In this document: piece after piece, positions 38,003 to 47,487 of the stretch | Layout of the letters: each line of letters starts with the position of its first letter | Numbering within the stretch: the stretch's first letter is position 1 | NCBI RefSeq assembly: GCF_022347685.1 | Contig: NZ_JAKRGF010000005.1 | Location: forward strand, 124,001 to 188,000 | Origin: Thalassobius sp. Cn5-15 | GTDB lineage: Bacteria; Pseudomonadota; Alphaproteobacteria; Rhodobacterales; Rhodobacteraceae | Reading direction: 5' to 3' | Length of the DNA: 64,000 bases | Notes under the pieces: generated by a model | Databases searched by the model: none | Told to the model about the DNA's origin: nothing | What the model saw: the letters and a program-made list of their open reading frames with translations, nothing else | Position numbers and translations under genes: made by a program

Positions 38003-38230
38003 CTATTTTAGGATGTCACGTTCTTCCGTGACCCGAGCCAGCTCTTTCTTAAGGCGGTGAACGTCCGCTTCTTGGTCCGTCTGCCTTTGAGGTGCCGAAA
38101 ATCTGGCCACTCATGTATAGCGAGATTGGGTGCTGATACCCAGCCGTTCGGCGATTTCCCGGACCGAATACCCGCGCGCTGTCACCTGCGCTTTGAATTC
38201 TGAACCACATAGATTGACCGCTGCGTCAAC
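38003..38230 (-). pseudogene. IS3 family transposase OrfA remnant with nonsense codon
   Basis: Read on the minus strand, the frame gives GSEFKAQVTARGYSVREIAE, RLGISTQSRYT, stop, VARFSAPQRQTDQEADVHRL, KKELARVTEERDILK, stop. This is the OrfA helix-turn-helix and leucine-zipper layout of IS3 elements; the Trp codon expected after Tyr-Thr is TGA, a single-base nonsense change. The downstream region to about 37850 may hold traces of OrfB (VRYAFLDAIAENMP). No terminal repeats were found. It fills most of the 569-base gap between LysR and the lipoprotein gene. Confidence 0.75.
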
Positions 38231-38331
38231 CTACAACTTCTCGCAGATTGTGCCAGTGGCGCGTTTCCTCACATTCAGGTTTGTCAGCTTTGGCATCAGT
38301 CAAAGCGCGGAACAAAATTTGAGGGGAAATC

Positions 38332-38919
38332 ATGAAGTCTTTCCAAATTCTAGCATCGGCCGCTGTCGCGGTCTCTCTGGCGGCCTGCAGCTCCTCTGGT
38401 GGTGATTCCGATGGTGATATTGATCTGCCGGCGGAATTTTCCAATCTGGAGGATCTGTTGACGCGGGCTGATGCGGGGTCGCTGAATGCCGCTGACGCAT
38501 CCCTGATGTCAGGTACCGTTGATATGACCGGTGCCATTGGCGTTGGCGACGTAGGTGACAGTGGCAACGATGAGGTGATTGGCAACCTGTCACTTTCAGT
38601 CGATTTCAACGATGGATCGGTGTCTGGGTCTGCCACCGGTTTTGATGTTTATGATAGCAACGGCAATCAAGGCGATGCAATCAGCGGTACGCTGACCATC
38701 GCGGGCGCTGCCGGATCGGTTTCTGGTGCCACATTTGACGCTGATGTCGACGGCATGCTGGTGGATGGGCCGGACAACATCACAGTAGACGGTGTCATCG
38801 CCGGTGACTTCTTCGACTACAATGGCGATTTGGCCACCACGGGCGATTTCGACGCAACCCTGACGACATCCGGCGGTACGGAAAATGTGTCCGGCGGTTT
38901 TGCAGCCATTGAGAACTAA
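38332..38919 (+). CDS. Surface-lipoprotein candidate, TbpB-like beta-barrel type
   Basis: The 195-residue protein has a type II signal peptide with lipobox LAAC (Cys19), and the next residue is Ser, which favours outer-membrane sorting. After a short acidic linker, the mature part is rich in Gly, Asp, Ser and Val with repeated short beta texts (GSVSGSATGFDVYD, ISGTLTIAGAAGSVSGATFD, ATLTTSGGTENVSGGFAAIEN). The closing G-G-F-A-A pattern is like the C-lobe barrel of TbpB/HphA-type lipoproteins. The start has GAGGGGAAATC upstream. The next gene encodes a Slam-like translocator, so this is its probable client. The ligand is unknown. Confidence 0.72.
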   Translation: MKSFQILASAAVAVSLAACSSSGGDSDGDIDLPAEFSNLEDLLTRADAGSLNAADASLMSGTVDMTGAIGVGDVGDSGNDEVIGNLSLSVDFNDGSVSGSATGFDVYDSNGNQGDAISGTLTIAGAAGSVSGATFDADVDGMLVDGPDNITVDGVIAGDFFDYNGDLATTGDFDATLTTSGGTENVSGGFAAIEN

Positions 38920-38931
38920 TTCAACCATCCA

Positions 38932-38971
38932 GCGCCCCTGCAGGCTTGATGCTGCAGGGGCGCGTCTTTTT
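38932..38971 (+). terminator. Strong terminator/attenuator between lipoprotein and Slam-like genes
   Basis: GCGCCCCTGCAG-GCTTGATG-CTGCAGGGGCGC is a perfect 12-bp stem followed by GTCTTTTT. It lies 12 bases after the lipoprotein stop and 28 bases before the chosen start of the Slam-like gene. Confidence 0.9.
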
Positions 38972-38998
38972 ACGATACGGTTTCTGTGCGGCGGTTTG

Positions 38999-40198
38999 AT
39001 GGCTGTCGCCTTGTTGCTTGGAGTTGGTCAACCCGTTTCGGCAGGCGCGGAAAAAAGGGGGGATCGGGCAGAGCTCTATCACAGGCTGGTGCGGATCGGC
39101 AGAGAGGCCGAAGATCCACGCCAAGCGGCGCAAGCCCTTGCCACTGCGGCCCGAATAGACCCGAAAAACGCGCAAGCGCATCTGCTGCTGGCAGAGCTTT
39201 TTTTTCAGGCAGGTCAGACTCGCCGCGCCGAAACATACCTGCGCGGACTGATCAAACAGCCGGGGCAGCGTGAGAATGCAGATGTCTACCTGCAGGCGCT
39301 TGATCGTCTTGCGCTTAGGCAGCCTGTCTTGCTCTCGGGATCCTTTGTTCTGCGGCCAACGAGTAACGTTAATAATGTCTCCTCGGAACGTCATTTTGAT
39401 ACGCTTTTGGGGCGCTTCAATATCAGTGAAGGCGGGGCAGAGGAATTCGGTATCGGTGCCGAAGTGGGGGGCAATCTGTCCTATCGGTTGCCATTAGGTA
39501 CAGGGCGCAGCCTTGTCTTTGGGGGGGGGCTGTCGCGTGGGCTGTATAAGCACGACCGATTGCGTTTCTGGCGCGCGCGCCTGTCGGCCGATTTGAAACA
39601 AATCGGGCCTTCCCAAGACTGGCGGCTGGGCATTTTTGCCAGCCGCAAGCGCTATAGCGATATCCCTGACAGCAGCGCCGAAGTGTTGCGTTATGGCGTG
39701 CGCGCCAACTTCAGCACCGATCTGACGGCGGGCCGCCGTTTCAATCTCGGCGCCGTGGTTGAACAGCGCGATTATTTGAACACCCCGACGTTTAGCGGTC
39801 CTGTGCTCAGCCTTAACGGGTCTTTCAGGACCATCCATTCCAAAGGAAGGGTGAGCACCCTTGGCCTGCGGTTGGAACGGCGCAATACAGAATTGGACTA
39901 TCACCGTTACTGGGGCGTGGGGGTGCAGCTGGGCGGCGAAACCAAGGTGACCGACCATCTGCGCATGGGGCTGAACGCCGGTCTTACCATTCGGCAGTAT
40001 GATGCCCACTTTGCCGCATTGGATTACGCACGCCGTGACAGGGTCTGGACAGTTGGTCTCTCGGCCATCCATCGCAAGATCAGTGTTTTCGGCGCCACGC
40101 CCAAGGTCAGCTGTAGCTATGAACGTCAGCGGTCCAATGTGGCACTGTATTCCCGTGAAACGACGGCCTGTGAACTGGGTTGGTTTTATCAGTTCTAG
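38999..40198 (+). CDS. Slam-like outer-membrane translocator (TPR plus DUF560 barrel)
   Basis: The protein has about 399 residues from the chosen ATG. After a hydrophobic export signal, helical TPR-like repeats cover about residues 30-120 (RQAAQALATAARIDPKNAQAH, AELFFQAGQTRRAETYLRGL). The rest is a beta barrel with alternating aromatic strands, opening at FVLRPTSNVNNVSSERHFDTL and ending CELGWFYQF with a terminal Phe. This is the surface lipoprotein assembly modifier (Slam, DUF560) layout. Slam proteins move specific lipoproteins to the cell surface. Frame is open up to 38885, inside the preceding gene, but a 12-bp terminator lies between, so a start at or near 38999 is likelier. No good ribosome binding site is seen. 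Confidence 0.75.
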   Translation: MAVALLLGVGQPVSAGAEKRGDRAELYHRLVRIGREAEDPRQAAQALATAARIDPKNAQAHLLLAELFFQAGQTRRAETYLRGLIKQPGQRENADVYLQALDRLALRQPVLLSGSFVLRPTSNVNNVSSERHFDTLLGRFNISEGGAEEFGIGAEVGGNLSYRLPLGTGRSLVFGGGLSRGLYKHDRLRFWRARLSADLKQIGPSQDWRLGIFASRKRYSDIPDSSAEVLRYGVRANFSTDLTAGRRFNLGAVVEQRDYLNTPTFSGPVLSLNGSFRTIHSKGRVSTLGLRLERRNTELDYHRYWGVGVQLGGETKVTDHLRMGLNAGLTIRQYDAHFAALDYARRDRVWTVGLSAIHRKISVFGATPKVSCSYERQRSNVALYSRETTACELGWFYQF

Positions 40199-40206
40199 GG
40201 CAGAGA

Positions 40207-41802
40207 TCAGGCGGTGCTGGCCGTGCTGTCATGGGGGATGCGGGCCAGATGCGCGACAATTTTGGGGAACTCCGCCCCCATCGCCAGATGGCCTGCCTCT
40301 TCCAACAGTTCAAACGAGGCACCGGGCAGGGATCGCGCCATTTCTGCGATCTCGTCGGGCGGAAAAAACGGATCCTGCGCGCCTTGTAGAAAGCTGATAC
40401 CGCAGGACACATGCTTCAGATCCGCTGCCCAGTTGCGATTGATGTTTTGAAACTCATCCATAGAACTCATCGCAGCTTCGTTGGCGATCAGTTGCAGCCA
40501 GTCAGCGAAAGTGTCCTGGGTGAACAGGCGTTCTACTTCGGCCAGATCGGCGGGGGCGTTGCGGTAGAGGTGATTCAGGCCCTTCTGCGCAAATCTGTTT
40601 GATCGGGCCAGCGCATTATAGACCCGCGCCAAACCGGTGATTACCTGCGGGTTCCGTTTGAGGCGCAGTGACAGTTCCGCATAGATCGAGGTGGTGCGGG
40701 CGGTTTCCCACGCATAGGCAGGCTGCGGGGTAGAGACCAGCATAAGGTGGTTTACAATATCAGCGTTGTGACGACTGAAGTGCAGTGCCCAAGAGACGCC
40801 CGCACTTTCGCCCAGGCAGATGACCGGCTGGTCGCACAGATAGTCCAGCGTCGCACGGATCGCAGCGGATACATGCGCCATCCGCTGCGCTGCACTTTGC
40901 GTGCCGCCAAAGCCGAGGAAGTGACGCGGTACCACCAGCCAGCGCAGCCCGTTTTGTTTCAAGCTCTCTGAGAAATCATCGCGATAGATTGTCGGGCAGA
41001 GCATGCTGTGAAAATATAGGACCGGCTGGCCCTGCCGATCGCCGAAATCCCAGATCGGCACCTCGATGCCTTCGCCGACGCTGATGCGATTCACCACCAC
41101 ATCACGCCCGAACTGTCGCCGGACGAGGGCGGTTTCCTTGTTGCGTTCAGGATGCAGCAGCAGTTCATCCAGCAGGCGCGAGGTGATTTCAATCGACAGT
41201 CGCCGCAGCAGGGCGTTTTGTGACCGGCTGCCCAGCTTGCTGAGCAATACCTGAACCTGCTTACGCTTGGTGTCGTATGAGGCGCCCAGCACTTCGGCCG
41301 CTGTTTTCAGGTCCAGACCGCTAAGGAGGTGGGCCAGAAGTTCATATTCGCTTTTGGTTAGATCGCTATCGGGTACTTCATCTCCCAGAAATCCCGGTAT
41401 CCGGTCGCGTGCCACTTCAATCGCGACGAAGGCCACATCAGCCGGCGCGTCGGGCCATCGGTCCAGCCGGTCAAAAAGGAAGAACAGCTGCGCGTCCACG
41501 ACGACAAAATGGCTGCCGGCCGCATTGGGTGCGGGCATCACTATGTGGTCAGGAAGGATATTCTCGGATCCCTCCAACAGCCCCTCGACCAGACGCTGCC
41601 CGTCGCGATCATAAAGGTTCAGCGGGTAGCTGACGCGGGCGAAATGCCAATGCAGAAACCGTTCGTAACTGGCCTGTTGTTCTGATCGTTTCAGCAGCGC
41701 TGCCTCTGATCCCAGAGTGACCGCGCGGGTCTGCGGCAACACATCATCAAGGGTTGCCATAAACTGGGTTCTGCCAGTCTGTACTGGTTTCTGATCGGTC
41801 AT
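40207..41802 (-). CDS. HTH regulator fused to alpha/beta hydrolase
   Basis: The 531-residue protein combines two parts. Residues about 50-140 look like a sensory PAS-like part (YPLNLYDRDGQRLVEGLLEG, HFVVVDAQLFFLFDRLDRW). Residues about 148-203 are a LuxR-like helix-turn-helix (LTKSEYELLAHLLSGLDLKT, AAEVLGASYDTKRKQVQVLL). Residues about 235-530 are an alpha/beta hydrolase with all three catalytic residues: Ser333 in CLGESAGV, Asp477 in QGAQDPFF and His505 in EEAGHLAMG. ATG 41802 was preferred to TTG 41817. It is divergent from a second LuxR-type gene, 164 bases away. The substrate is unknown; such a protein could destroy the ligand it senses. Confidence 0.8.
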   Translation of the reverse strand: MTDQKPVQTGRTQFMATLDDVLPQTRAVTLGSEAALLKRSEQQASYERFLHWHFARVSYPLNLYDRDGQRLVEGLLEGSENILPDHIVMPAPNAAGSHFVVVDAQLFFLFDRLDRWPDAPADVAFVAIEVARDRIPGFLGDEVPDSDLTKSEYELLAHLLSGLDLKTAAEVLGASYDTKRKQVQVLLSKLGSRSQNALLRRLSIEITSRLLDELLLHPERNKETALVRRQFGRDVVVNRISVGEGIEVPIWDFGDRQGQPVLYFHSMLCPTIYRDDFSESLKQNGLRWLVVPRHFLGFGGTQSAAQRMAHVSAAIRATLDYLCDQPVICLGESAGVSWALHFSRHNADIVNHLMLVSTPQPAYAWETARTTSIYAELSLRLKRNPQVITGLARVYNALARSNRFAQKGLNHLYRNAPADLAEVERLFTQDTFADWLQLIANEAAMSSMDEFQNINRNWAADLKHVSCGISFLQGAQDPFFPPDEIAEMARSLPGASFELLEEAGHLAMGAEFPKIVAHLARIPHDSTASTA

Positions 41803-41966
41803 CGGTGAAGGGTCCAATAGGGGTATTTGGCCTGCTCAATGATCTTAAGGGGCAATAATCGAACTGCATACCCCCCATTTGGGGGGCGCGGCAGGCGGGT
41901 GTTTGGCCTGAGATAGGTCCAGCCATTCACAGCCAGGACAGCGGTGCCAAACCGTTGAGTGCCAAG

Positions 41967-42564: not shown

Positions 42565-43338
42565 TCAGTCGGGGGGGCTGCGCCAGCACATCAAGGGCAC
42601 ATCCAACACCCGCACCACCATTACCGCGACAGTCAACGCAAAGAGCAGCGCCATCGCATACCAAGTCAGTGCATAGGACAGATGGTTGTTCGGAAACGCG
42701 ATCACCGTCATACCGCCGCGCGGCCACGTGTCAGGGGCGGCGTCATGGTCAGCGTCCAGAAAGTAGGTCCGCGTGCGGCCCAGACCAAGGCGTGAAGACA
42801 TCGCGGCCGTGTCGCGCGACACCCAGCGGTCAATATCGGGCCGGTTGGGTTCCAGTAATGTGCCGTCCGGCGCAGTAGGGCGCAACAGGCCGGTTAGCTG
42901 GGGTTTCGGAGCGGTCCAATTGGCGGGATCCTTGCGGTCATTGGGCACAAAGCCGCGATTGATCCAGAGGATATCAGCGCCGACTTGGTAGGGGGTCATC
43001 ACCCAGTAACCCGGCCCCAGCTCTGTCACCGCTTTGACCAGTAGCGCGTGCTCTAGTGGTGTGCCGCTTACCCTGACACGCAGGTATTCGTGGGTTTCGG
43101 GGCGAAAAATGGGGGGCAGCGTGGTGGGAACGCCAAAGGCACGGGTATCCACTGTAGCGATCAAGTCGTTCTTCCACGTCAGGCGTTTGACCTGCCAGTT
43201 GCCCAGAAGGACAAAGACCACCACCAGCCCAGCGGACACGACCAGCAGCCCCCATGTCATCCAGCGTGGGCGATGGGGTGGAACCAAATCTGCCGGAACG
43301 GCGTCCGGCAGATCCGTGTTTTCAGGTCGCTTGGTCAC
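42565..43338 (-). CDS. SURF1 family oxidase assembly protein
   Basis: The 257-residue membrane protein has two transmembrane segments: GLLVVSAGLVVVFVLLGNWQ near residue 30 and LSYALTWYAMALLFALTVAV near 225. A periplasmic SURF1 domain lies between (NRGFVPNDRKDPANW, LTGLLRPTAP). SURF1 proteins help insert heme into the catalytic subunit of heme-copper oxidases. The GTG start and 12-base gap to cyoD show that it is the last gene of the cyoABCD operon, so it most likely serves the quinol oxidase. Confidence 0.9.
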   Translation of the reverse strand: MTKRPENTDLPDAVPADLVPPHRPRWMTWGLLVVSAGLVVVFVLLGNWQVKRLTWKNDLIATVDTRAFGVPTTLPPIFRPETHEYLRVRVSGTPLEHALLVKAVTELGPGYWVMTPYQVGADILWINRGFVPNDRKDPANWTAPKPQLTGLLRPTAPDGTLLEPNRPDIDRWVSRDTAAMSSRLGLGRTRTYFLDADHDAAPDTWPRGGMTVIAFPNNHLSYALTWYAMALLFALTVAVMVVRVLDVPLMCWRSPPD

Positions 43339-43350
43339 GTCTGTGATCCC

Positions 43351-43710
43351 TTACGGCAGGTTGCGTACCCGCTCGATCTGTTCGTGGGCCGGCATCATGT
43401 TTTCTTCGAGGTTGAACATAACCCAGATAGAGCCGGACAGGACGATGACCAAGAGCAGGATGGTCAGACCCATAGACATAACCTGCCAGCCTGCTTCGGC
43501 CTTGATAGTAACATGCAGGAAGTAGTGGATATGCACCAGCATCTGCATACCGCCGAGGACGAAGATCAGGACCACGGCCAGAGTTTTGTTGTCCATCACG
43601 TCGCCCATCACGATCCAGAACGGAACCGCGGTCAGCACAACCGAAAGGACAAAACCGATGAGATAGGATTTCAGCGACCCGTGGCCGCCTTCATGGGTGT
43701 CTGCGCTCAC
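43351..43710 (-). CDS. cyoD: Cytochrome bo3 ubiquinol oxidase subunit IV
   Basis: The 119-residue protein has three transmembrane segments (YLIGFVLSVVLTAVPFWIVMG, LAVVLIFVLGGMQMLVHIHYF, VMSMGLTILLLVIVLSGSIWV), as in CyoD. The N-terminus is rich in Gly, His and charged residues (HEGGHGSLKSYL). It stabilises the bo3 complex in the inner membrane. Its ATG overlaps the cyoC stop by four bases. Confidence 0.95.
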   Translation of the reverse strand: MSADTHEGGHGSLKSYLIGFVLSVVLTAVPFWIVMGDVMDNKTLAVVLIFVLGGMQMLVHIHYFLHVTIKAEAGWQVMSMGLTILLLVIVLSGSIWVMFNLEENMMPAHEQIERVRNLP

Positions 43711-44363
43711 AATAGGACTCCTGTCAGATAAACCAGGGTAAAGACGCCGATCCAGATCAGGTCAAGGAAGTGCCAGAACAAGCTGAGGCACATCACGCGT
43801 CGCTTGTTGGCGTGGGTCAGGCCATGCATCCGCAACTGCACCAGCAGCACGATCAGCCACAAGGTGCCAGAGGCAACGTGCAGACCGTGGGTGCCGACCA
43901 GAAAGAAGAAAGACGACAGAAACGCGCTGGCCATCGGCGTGGCGCCGAGGTGCCACAGGTGGTTGAATTCATAGATTTCCAACCCCAGAAAGCAGGCGCC
44001 GAAAACGCCTGTGACGATCAGCCAGATCGTGGTGCCATTCAGATCACCCTTGTCCATGCGCAAAACCGCAAAGCCATAGGTGATCGACGAAAACAGCAGC
44101 ATCGAAGTGCTGATCAGGATCAGATCCAGATCAAACAGATCAACAGGTGCGGGACCAGCAGCGTAGTTGCCGCCCAGAACGGCGTATGTTGCGAACAGAA
44201 TACCAAAGATCAGGCAGTCGCTCATCAGGTAGATCCAGAAACCCAGCATGGTGCCAGTTTCGTGGTGGTGCTCTGCGTGATCGCCGCCATGGTCCCCATG
44301 CGCTGCATGGGGATCTTCGGTGACAAAAAACTCAAGCGGTTGGTTTGCGGTGGTTGCGCTCAT
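43707..44363 (-). CDS. cyoC: Cytochrome bo3 ubiquinol oxidase subunit III
   Basis: The 218-residue protein has a His-rich N-terminus (HAAHGDHGGDHAEHHHETG) and five transmembrane segments starting at about residue 40 (MLGFWIYLMSDCLIFGILFA). It is the non-catalytic subunit III of the heme-copper quinol oxidase. It overlaps cyoD by four bases, and its first base is shared with the cyoB stop region. The texts FFLVGTHGLHVASGTLW and LFWHFLDLIWIGVFTLVYL are typical. Confidence 0.96.
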   Translation of the reverse strand: MSATTANQPLEFFVTEDPHAAHGDHGGDHAEHHHETGTMLGFWIYLMSDCLIFGILFATYAVLGGNYAAGPAPVDLFDLDLILISTSMLLFSSITYGFAVLRMDKGDLNGTTIWLIVTGVFGACFLGLEIYEFNHLWHLGATPMASAFLSSFFFLVGTHGLHVASGTLWLIVLLVQLRMHGLTHANKRRVMCLSLFWHFLDLIWIGVFTLVYLTGVLL

Positions 44364-46402
44364 TATTCCGCGGGCTCCGCCAATTTGCTGAGGAACTTGT
44401 GCTCAGTCTCGCGCACTTCGTCTGCAGGGACGTAGTAGTCGCGGTTGTAGTTGAAGGTGTGCAGGATGCCGTAGGCCACCGCTGCGATGAAGGTCATCGC
44501 AGCGATGAACCACATGTGCCAGATCATCGCAAAGCCCAGCACAGTCAGCAGGCCAGAGATGATCACGCCTGTCGCAGTGTAACGCGGCATATGGATCGGC
44601 ATGTAGCCTTCGGACGGGCGGGTGAAGCCCACGCGCTTCATATGAGTGAAGGCGTCGATTTCGTGCACACGCGGCGTAAAGGCAAAGTTGTAGTAGGGTG
44701 GCGGCGACGAGGTCGACCATTCCAGCGTACGGCCAGTTCCCCATGCATCACCTGTGTGATCCCGCAGCTCTTCGCGACGCAAGATCGACACAACGATCTG
44801 GATGATAAAGGCCGCAATGCCGATGGCGACAAACACAGCGCCTACAAGCGCGATGATGAAGTAGACGGCATAGAAGGTGTCTTCGAACTGGCTCAGACGA
44901 CGGGTGACGCCCATCAGACCCAGAATGTAGAGTGGCATGAACGCCAGATAGAAGCCGATCAGCCAGCACCAGAAACTTACCTTGCCCCAGAACGGATCCA
45001 GCGAGAATCCGAAGGCCTTGGGCCACCAGAACACGATGCCGGCAAAGATACCGAACACCACGCCGCCGATGATAACGTTATGGAAGTGCGCAATCAGGAA
45101 CAGCGAGTTGTGCAGCACATAGTCCGCCGGCGGAACCGCCAGCAGCACGCCGGTCATGCCTCCGATCACAAAGGTGATCATGAAGCCCATAACCCACAGC
45201 ATCGGGGTTTCGAACCGGATGCGGCCTTTGTACATGGTGAAAAGCCAGTTGAAGATCTTGGCCCCTGTCGGGATCGAGATGATCATCGTGGTGATGCCAA
45301 AGAAGGCGTTCACATTGGCACCCGCCCCCATGGTAAAGAAGTGGTGCAGCCACACGATATAGCTGAGAACCATGATCACACAGGTGGCGTACACCATCGA
45401 GGTATAGCCAAACAGACGTTTGCTGCTGAAGGTCGGCACAATCTCTGAGAAGATGCCAAAGACCGGCAGGATCAGGATATAGACCTCAGGGTGGCCCCAG
45501 ATCCAGATCAGGTTCACATACATCATCGGGCTACCACCCAATTCGTTGGTGAAGAACGCGGTGCCGATGTAGCGGTCAGCGGTCAGCAGCGCCAGCGTGG
45601 CGGTCAGCACCGGGAAGGTGGCGACGATCAGCACGTTGGTACACAGCGTGGTCCAGGTGAACACCGGCATTTTCATGTAGGTCATGCCGGGGGCACGCAT
45701 CTTGACGATGGTGACCACCAGGTTGATGCCCGACAATGTCGTCCCGATACCGGCGATGTTCAGCGCCCACAGGTAGTAGTCCATGCCCACACTCGGGCTG
45801 TACTCCAGCCCAGAGAATGGCGCATAGGCCAGCCAGCCTGCAGTCGAAAACTCGCCCACAAACAGCGAAATCATCACCAATACCGCACCCGACACCGTCA
45901 GCCACAGACTGAAGTTGTTGAGGAACGGGAAAGCAACGTCGCGCGCACCGATCTGTAGTGGCATCACATAGTTCATGAAGCCGGTCACAAACGGCATCGC
46001 CACAAAGAAAATCATGATCACACCATGTGCGGTGAAAATCTGGTCATAGTGGTGCGGTGGCAGGTAGCCTTCATAGCCCGCGGCAGCCAGCGCCTGATGA
46101 CCCCGCATCAGCAGCGCATCGGCAAAGCCACGCAGCAGCATGATCAGGCCAAGGATCATGTACATGATCCCGACCTTCTTGTGGTCGATCGAAGTCAGCC
46201 AACCGCGCCACAGCGGCCCCCAAAGGCGGTAGTAGGTCATCGCAGCCAGCGTTGCGATGCCGCCCAGAACCACCCCAATAAAGGTAATGAGGATAATGGG
46301 ATCGTGCAAAAACGCCAGCGCGTCCCAGTTAAGTTTCCCCCAGAAGGGGTGGACATCGGTGTGCAGGGTTGCGCCGCCATGTCCGTGAGATGAAGAAGCC
46401 AT
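44363..46402 (-). CDS. cyoB: Cytochrome bo3 ubiquinol oxidase subunit I
   Basis: The 679-residue protein is the catalytic subunit with about fifteen transmembrane segments. It holds heme b, heme o3 and CuB and passes electrons from ubiquinol to oxygen. Landmarks are the heme His in [10 protein letters not shown], the CuB His-Tyr [12 protein letters not shown], the His pair [10 protein letters not shown], and the heme-binding [15 protein letters not shown]. The ATG at 46402 was chosen because [10 protein letters not shown] starts the family region; an upstream open frame lies inside cyoA. cyoA ends three bases upstream. Confidence 0.97.
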
Positions 46403-46404
46403 AG

Positions 46405-47487
46405 TCAGTTTCCGTTTGGAAGGGGGTCGCTTGCCACAATGGCGGGGGTCAGGGTCATCGCTGCCAGAATCTCTTCGGCGCTGTGCTCTACGTCTGGACG
46501 CAGCAGCGCCAGCAGTGCTTCGGGATCGTCCGCGGAACACAGACCGCGGAACAGTTCCCGGTTAAACAGACCTTCCAGACCGCCGCCGCCAAGGGCGTCA
46601 ACCATCATCATGTCGTTCATGCACAGATCATCGTCCGAGGTGCACTGGTTCAGGATCCTGTCCCAAAGCCCATCCTCGACCGCGCTGTAATAGGTGACGG
46701 GGTGTGCAATGCTCTTATTATCCAGAACGGCAATCTCATCACGATCCAGCCCTTGCGGATCTGCGCGCACGGTTTCTACCCACGCGTCGAAATCCTGTTC
46801 GCTGAGGCCGTGAAACTTGAACCGCATCTGCGAAAACCCTGCGCCGCTGTAGTTTGCGGAGAAGCCTTTATAGACGCCCGGTTCGTTGATCACCGCGTTC
46901 AACTCTGTTTGCATGCCATTCATGGTATAGATCATGCCGGCCAGTGCAGGCACATAGAACGAGTTCATAACCGTGGTCGAGGTCAGCTGAAATTCGATCG
47001 GGCGGTCCACAACTGCGGCCAGTTCGTTCACTGTGGCAATGCCCTGTTCGGGGTAGATGAACAACCATTTCCAATCCATCGCGGCCACTTGCACCACCAG
47101 CGGCTGCACCTCTGGATCGATCGCCTGATCGGCAGAGATCCGCGATAGTGGCTTGTAGGGGTCCAGACGGTGCGTCGCCACCCAGGTCAGACCGGCCAGA
47201 CAGATGATGATTGCAAGCGGGACCGACCAGATGATGATTTCCAGCGTGGTCGAGTGGTGCCAATCCGGCTCATAGGGCGCATCTTGGTTAGAGGCACGGT
47301 ATTTGATGGCAAAGAAAATCGTGAGCACGATCACCGGCACAATCACAATCAGCATCAAAACCGTAGAGTAAATGATGAGGTTTGCCTGTTGTTCTGCAAT
47401 ATCCCCAGAGGGGGACATGACAACAAGATTACACCCGCTCAGGGCAAATATGAGCGGCAGAAAAGCCGCAATCTTAGCGCGTTTCAT
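46405..47487 (-). CDS. cyoA: Cytochrome bo3 ubiquinol oxidase subunit II
   Basis: The 360-residue protein has a lipoprotein-type N-terminus ([10 protein letters not shown], Cys19) and two transmembrane segments (residues about 35-110). A periplasmic cupredoxin domain follows ([40 protein letters not shown]). The copper A ligands of cytochrome c oxidases are missing, which marks it as a quinol oxidase. It is the first gene of the operon. The divergent MFS gene starts 183 bases away across a shared promoter region. The C-terminus is longer than in E. coli CyoA. Confidence 0.95.

Follow-up and report, generated by a model that had tools for sequence, protein, structure and literature searches.

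Slam proteins, the outer-membrane proteins of type 11 secretion systems (T11SS), have been described with the lipoproteins TbpB, HpuA and fHbp in Neisseria and PmSLP-1 in Pasteurella, where a PF04575 protein with a TPR domain and a 14-strand barrel stands beside a lipoprotein with an eight-strand barrel. Slam1 is the translocon and Skp the holdase (PMC9090332). In Neisseria and Pasteurella the cargo has a handle before the barrel (PMC5449769, PMC12080921), and most predicted Slam-adjacent lipoproteins have an N-terminal region able to form one, followed by a barrel that is predicted to hold the translocation motif (PMC5449769). That source says "most" and not all, so handle-less exceptions may be known. 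The T11SS of the Roseobacteraceae and Rhodobacteraceae have already been analysed as well, and effector, pedestal and barrel are described as ubiquitous to the cargo examined, with some effector regions that barely exceed the pedestal and a barrel that is called a putative targeting domain (PMC12282271). NCBIfam also has a lipoprotein model, NF041636 (slam_lipo), whose short length of 154 positions suggests that NCBI has already recognised small lipoproteins of Slam systems.

We analysed a stretch of 64 kb, referred to here as the window, in which a lipoprotein (the client) is encoded directly before a Slam (Table 1). The pair resembles the Neisseria and Pasteurella systems in its two barrels, but the client has one helix in place of the handle. 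It resembles the marine cluster 3 T11SS in the bacterial families, the translocator family and the adjoining lipoprotein. However, the published cluster 3 loci contain DUF1194, thymidylate synthase and glyoxalase genes, unlike the window, and their cargo of 282-375 aa comprises effector, pedestal and barrel, whereas the window client has 195 aa and the barrel only (PMC12282271). A Slam pair in a roseobacter, which the sequence-only reading of this DNA had offered as a novelty, is not new: such systems are published (PMC12282271), and among 394 sampled genomes of the family, 145 have a PF04575 match at E <= 0.001 (134 over the cut-off). We found no report of a barrel-only cargo or of a LuxR-linked Slam locus in the parts of the literature examined. 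A LuxR link is not mentioned for the Neisseria and Pasteurella Slams in the available text of PMC5449769 and PMC12080921, the word LuxR is absent from the main text of PMC12282271, and a search of openly licensed papers gave no report of a link between type 11 secretion and LuxR. We regard this as a transport system of a known kind whose handle-less cargo and regulatory cassette look unusual.

Table 1. Features of the Slam locus and its surroundings (window positions).
Feature	Position	Strand	Basis or remark
IS3-type OrfA remnant (IS3 label by eye)	38003..38230	-	broken reading-frame pieces; just 5' of the client promoter
Lux-box-like inverted repeat	38228..38250	+	104 bp 5' of the client start; candidate site
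Client lipoprotein, 195 aa, one helix and eight-strand barrel, no handle	38332..38919	+	ORF, lipobox, model
Slam / T11SS outer-membrane protein, TPR domain and 14-strand barrel	38885..40198	+	PF04575, 68.2 bits; model
GC-rich hairpin between client and Slam, terminator-like	38932..38963	+	T tract next in the window
Fusion: N-terminal part of unknown fold, LuxR-like HTH (by eye), alpha/beta-hydrolase	40207..41817	-	Abhydrolase_1, 32.8 bits
Palindrome CCCCCC-N4-GGGGGG-CG between the divergent fusion and luxR genes	41871..41888	+	one place per genome
LuxR-family (GerE) regulator, 195 aa	41955..42542	+	GerE, 45.9 bits

The sequence-only reading had placed a lipoprotein gene directly before a gene for a TPR and barrel protein at 38332-40198, and its coordinates and terminal Phe were confirmed. 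The identification of the barrel protein as Slam was borne out by the profile search: the 437-aa protein, which ends in Phe, matches PF04575 (SlipAM, DUF560) at E 1.1e-18, far over the cut-off of 22 bits, and it also matches TPR models, with TPR_19 over its cut-off at 36.4 bits. The AlphaFold2 model (mean pLDDT 82.7) has TPR-like helices and then 14 long strands that end beside the terminal Phe, a count that leaves out two further strands of 3 residues; the alignments used for the Slam and client models are shallow (7 sequences). Foldseek ranked OmpG first for the Slam model and also listed BcsC, a TPR-plus-barrel protein. A sequence search of the PDB with Slam returned mainly TPR proteins, none of them named Slam among the best 60 of 91 matches.

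The true start of the Slam gene is uncertain. The candidates are ATG 38885, which overlaps the client, ATG 38999 and TTG 38996; by eye, either of the latter two would suit a signal peptide, and one of them is perhaps the start. The window gene has no ordinary ATG where the relatives begin. A start at ATG 38885 would place the hairpin within the coding region. The window's own genome has three PF04575 genes. The second (L133 10197-12522) lies 10 kb to the right of the window end, with a gene for a 310-aa lipoprotein directly upstream and a protein nearby that by eye resembles aspartate aminotransferase, as in published marine cluster 3; this locus looks closer to the marine cluster 3 type than the window pair does. 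The third (L132 6673-8834) has a gene for a lipoprotein of ~225 aa directly upstream.

The client has a lipobox, LAAC by eye, with the cysteine at position 19 and a mature chain of 177 residues, of which 32 are acidic and 1 is basic. Its AlphaFold2 model (mean pLDDT 82.7, below 50 in residues 1-28) has one helix (34-48) and eight strands (62-194), with no handle or pedestal, and the helix alone precedes the barrel. Both models thus have the barrels of 8 and 14 strands that had been expected, and profile and structure predictions agree with the earlier view of the client as a single handle-less barrel of 177 mature residues. The likeness to a TbpB-type barrel that was proposed with it found no such agreement in family searches: the client has no match at E <= 1 in Pfam, including TbpB_B_D and FHBP_C, a sequence search of the PDB gave no match, and slam_lipo scores 15.3 bits, below its cut-off of 80. 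A weak barrel match to slam_lipo is found in the window client and in three of four relatives' clients scanned, at 15.3 to 18.3 bits against the same cut-off. In a Foldseek comparison with the PDB, the client model comes closest to the NHBA C-terminal domain (E 0.013), with avidins scoring almost the same, and no match passes 0.001. With a profile of 15 client-like proteins, a match to the LbpB C-lobe reaches E 0.024. The fold evidence for the predicted client as Slam cargo is weak, yet it points in the right direction. The strongest link of the client to Slam cargo is a profile-profile match: hhalign of seven clients against three lipoproteins encoded beside Slams of a neighbouring clade gave a probability of 98% and E 2.4e-13, with both profiles shallow and signal peptides included.

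When genome contigs were scanned with the Slam alignment, 115 candidate stretches emerged and six loci were confirmed, in Celeribacter halophilus, Pacificibacter marinus (two strains), P. maritimus, Aquimixticola soesokkakensis and Thioclava marina. The client is directly upstream of Slam in all six, and therefore in 7/7 loci with the window, and a GerE regulator gene is near Slam in the window and in each of the six relatives. The order client, Slam, convergent fusion gene, divergent luxR is found in the window and in four of the six relatives (Celeribacter, both P. marinus and Aquimixticola). P. maritimus has kept luxR, its fusion gene is reduced to a remnant of 84 aa, and a 363-aa LuxR is encoded close by; Thioclava has a 363-aa LuxR after Slam and neither the fusion nor the 195-aa luxR. 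In a Slam tree of 50 rows, drawn from 93 hits in the loci collected with near-copies dropped, the eight cassette-clade rows form one group (support 98/94), and the neighbouring Slam clade is placed beside it with weak support (86/67). A further genome, G156, has Slam (L130 6981-8111), the fusion gene with luxR (L129 319-2595) and a lux-box-like site (L153 1501-1603) on three contigs; Slam and the site are both at contig ends, and the cassette may have been split by assembly.

The open reading frames 5' of the client vary between loci in the ORF listing, and a relative of the window Slam (P0002) occurs in one of nine genomes of the genus, the window's own. The set therefore behaves as an accessory cassette, as the sequence-only reading had supposed. 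Its mobile remnant held up in part: the pieces look like IS3 OrfA by eye, and window 38006-38180 (175 bp) is matched at 75% DNA identity by a comparable fragment of the congener G076 (L187), but Pfam support is weak, with HTH_Tnp_1 at E 0.023 for one piece and no Pfam match for a second. DNA matches of congeners to the 13-kb region are short and scattered and do not show an empty site. Plasmid records gave zero DNA matches and one protein match of 24.5%, in Nitratireductor thuwali. The nearest neighbours of the Slam pair are the LuxR-hydrolase fusion and LuxR, and cytochrome oxidase genes (SURF1, COX3, COX1) border the cassette at 42565-46540. No TonB receptor is present among the 10 neighbouring window genes searched against Pfam, and a nutrient-binding role, which had been raised by analogy with TbpB, is not indicated.

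Each of the six relatives has AACCTATA-N6-TATAGGTTG or a variant of it upstream of the client, at -107 or -108 relative to a start codon chosen by alignment. The window has the site at -104, so that this lux-box-like site is found at -104 to -108 in 7/7 loci. When the sites of the six relatives (4 distinct versions) were turned into a matrix, window 38228-38250 ranked first among all positions on both strands of the 64 kb, at 23.9 bits with the next place at 9.2; the test is not fully independent because the relatives were fetched for their shared Slam, and two strains in the set bear the same species name. In the upstream alignment, 14 of the 26 invariant columns fall inside the site. The consensus of this 20-bp inverted repeat has 15/20 bases in common with the V. 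fischeri lux box, and the right half-site of the window repeat is a poor palindrome. Each of the seven cassette genomes contains a single exact match to a pattern that was fitted to the seven sites, so that the presence of the match is by construction and its singleness is not; the reversed control gave 0, and G076 and G230 have no exact match. G156 was not used for the pattern and has one exact match, 83 bp before the locus end, which we take for the contig end. Allowing one mismatch adds a single place in each of four genomes: the window's own, G156, P. marinus F2R14 and P. maritimus. In the two Pacificibacter genomes this second lux-box-like site (L156 1478-1883, L157 1117-1522) precedes a protein of 102-107 aa whose N-terminus is signal-like, and the 363-aa LuxR gene is close to it. 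A search for a motif common to the client and regulator promoters within each genome gave none above 15 shuffles each.

Two other DNA elements recur in the cassette. Among 10 genomes searched, six have CCCCCC-N4-GGGGGG-CG, at one place each and always between the divergent luxR and fusion genes; the reversed control gave 0. A hairpin between client and Slam is found in 7/7 loci at -18.2 to -27.6 kcal/mol, with 0, 0, 0, 0, 0, 2 and 9 of 300 shuffles as good across the seven; the Celeribacter and Pacificibacter hairpins resemble each other and are not independent cases, and the folding of the whole fragment stands out only weakly in some of the relatives (z -1.0 to -4.0). The window hairpin is the one at -27.6 kcal/mol. 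A T tract follows in the window copy only, so the hairpins of the other loci may stabilise the client mRNA and not end it.

The GerE domain and the lux-box-like repeat recall LuxR-type regulators and their targets. Unlike the AHL-type LuxR quorum regulators, the 195-aa LuxR and three relatives' LuxR proteins scanned have no autoinducer-binding domain by Pfam, and one weak PAS match was found among the relatives' proteins. The 195-aa and 363-aa LuxR types have a similar DNA-binding end. A search of 10 genomes found the 363-aa type in 6; the four that lack it are the window's own genome, Aquimixticola, G076 and G230. Since Thioclava has no 195-aa LuxR and the window genome no 363-aa LuxR, no single regulator accompanies the lux-box-like site everywhere. 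In the fusion, the HTH seen by eye was not found by Pfam at E <= 1. The Ser, Asp and His that a hydrolase triad should comprise are invariant in seven aligned sequences of the fusion. Proteins related to the fusion over its full length occur in three other genomes of the 394 (G042, G230 and G156; 39-45% identity in the alignment), and weaker matches, mostly from about residue 145 on, raise the tally to 157/394, with at most three candidates scored per genome. The G230 relative (L128 8376-10019) is without Slam and lies beside what by eye is a cytochrome oxidase-like gene set; that such neighbours are common to it and to the window cassette may be chance.

Client-like proteins are present in 25 of the 394 family genomes, at 29 places, and 25 of these places have no Slam in the fetched flanks of ~1.5 kb; one of the 25, in G254, is ~3 kb from a PF04575 match. 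Eight of the 25 genomes have no PF04575 match, and two of the eight (G018 and G180) have weak matches to the window Slam (P0002). PF04575 is found in 17/25 genomes with a client-like match (17 hand-counted) and in 128/369 others (Fisher p 0.002), and the same enrichment is seen without the four linked genomes (13/21, 13 hand-counted, p 0.018). Client-like barrel lipoproteins are encoded two or three in a row at L038, L042, L044, L045, L049 and L052, with no Slam in the fetched flanks. A scan of 1.0 Mb of loci for lux-box-like sites placed none at the 25 Slam-less client-like loci (L037-L061) among the best 45 of 61 matches above 11 bits, and weaker sites could be hidden there because the lowest match listed scored 15.1 bits.

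From the computed Slam family, predicted folds, gene order and conserved DNA sites, our best reading, which we consider probable, is LuxR-controlled surface display of a minimal client by a type 11 (Slam) secretion system. The client would be exported by Sec, lipidated and carried to the outer membrane, and its own Slam would then move it to the surface by recognising the C-terminal eight-strand barrel, which in this client would be nearly the whole cargo; the display step follows the published model (PMC9090332). That a LuxR-type protein is in control we infer from the order of the genes and the conservation of the site. The GerE/LuxR-type regulator next door (195-aa here, the related 363-aa protein in Thioclava) would bind the operator ~100 bp 5' of the client and switch display on a signal, probably not an acyl-homoserine lactone. 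The LuxR-hydrolase fusion would act as a second sensor and might bind an ester-type signal or cleave it, and the hairpin 3' of the client may hold Slam expression below client expression and so set the proportion of the two. As for what the barrel would do at the surface, adhesion or signalling is our guess.

It is also conceivable, although we think it unlikely, that the Slam pair is real and the LuxR and fusion genes are mere fellow travellers, with the conserved site serving another regulator. Binding of the regulator to the site is a prediction from sequence, the fusion has an orthologue in G230 without the Slam cassette and is a remnant in P. maritimus, and Thioclava retains the site without the 195-aa LuxR or the fusion. 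Yet a GerE gene accompanies Slam in the window and all six relatives, the site resembles the target of LuxR-type proteins, and in two Pacificibacter genomes the 363-aa LuxR gene has a site of this kind next to it, all of which argues for LuxR-type control.

The constant position of the client directly upstream of Slam, the match of the client profile to cargos of other Slams, and an eight-strand barrel, which is described as the common feature of Slam cargo (PMC5449769, PMC12282271), make it improbable that the client is periplasmic or surfaced otherwise and that Slam serves another protein. Such an arrangement would fit a client without effector or handle domain, and it would fit the related barrel lipoproteins that have no Slam nearby, some of them in the eight genomes without a PF04575 match. 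The strong hairpin with its T tract in the window copy only, and the missing ATG where the relatives begin, could mean instead that the Slam of the window strain is poorly expressed or non-functional; but the frame is intact to the terminal Phe, conserved residues are retained, and all relatives with intact Slams have a hairpin at the same place, and we give this explanation very little credence.

In its fullest form, the preferred reading of LuxR-controlled display would be a signal-gated T11SS, with a near-bare barrel cargo in excess over Slam, LuxR-type control via a lux-box-like operator, the fusion as second sensor, and a four-gene cassette that is spreading among marine roseobacters; taken as a whole, we put this forward tentatively, as something that may well prove wrong in one part or another. 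The client consists almost entirely of the kind of barrel that forms the C-terminal part of published cargo, and a natural near-barrel-only cargo would directly test whether the barrel suffices for Slam recognition. The cassette, as its gene content and DNA sites suggest, would tie type 11 secretion to LuxR-type regulation.
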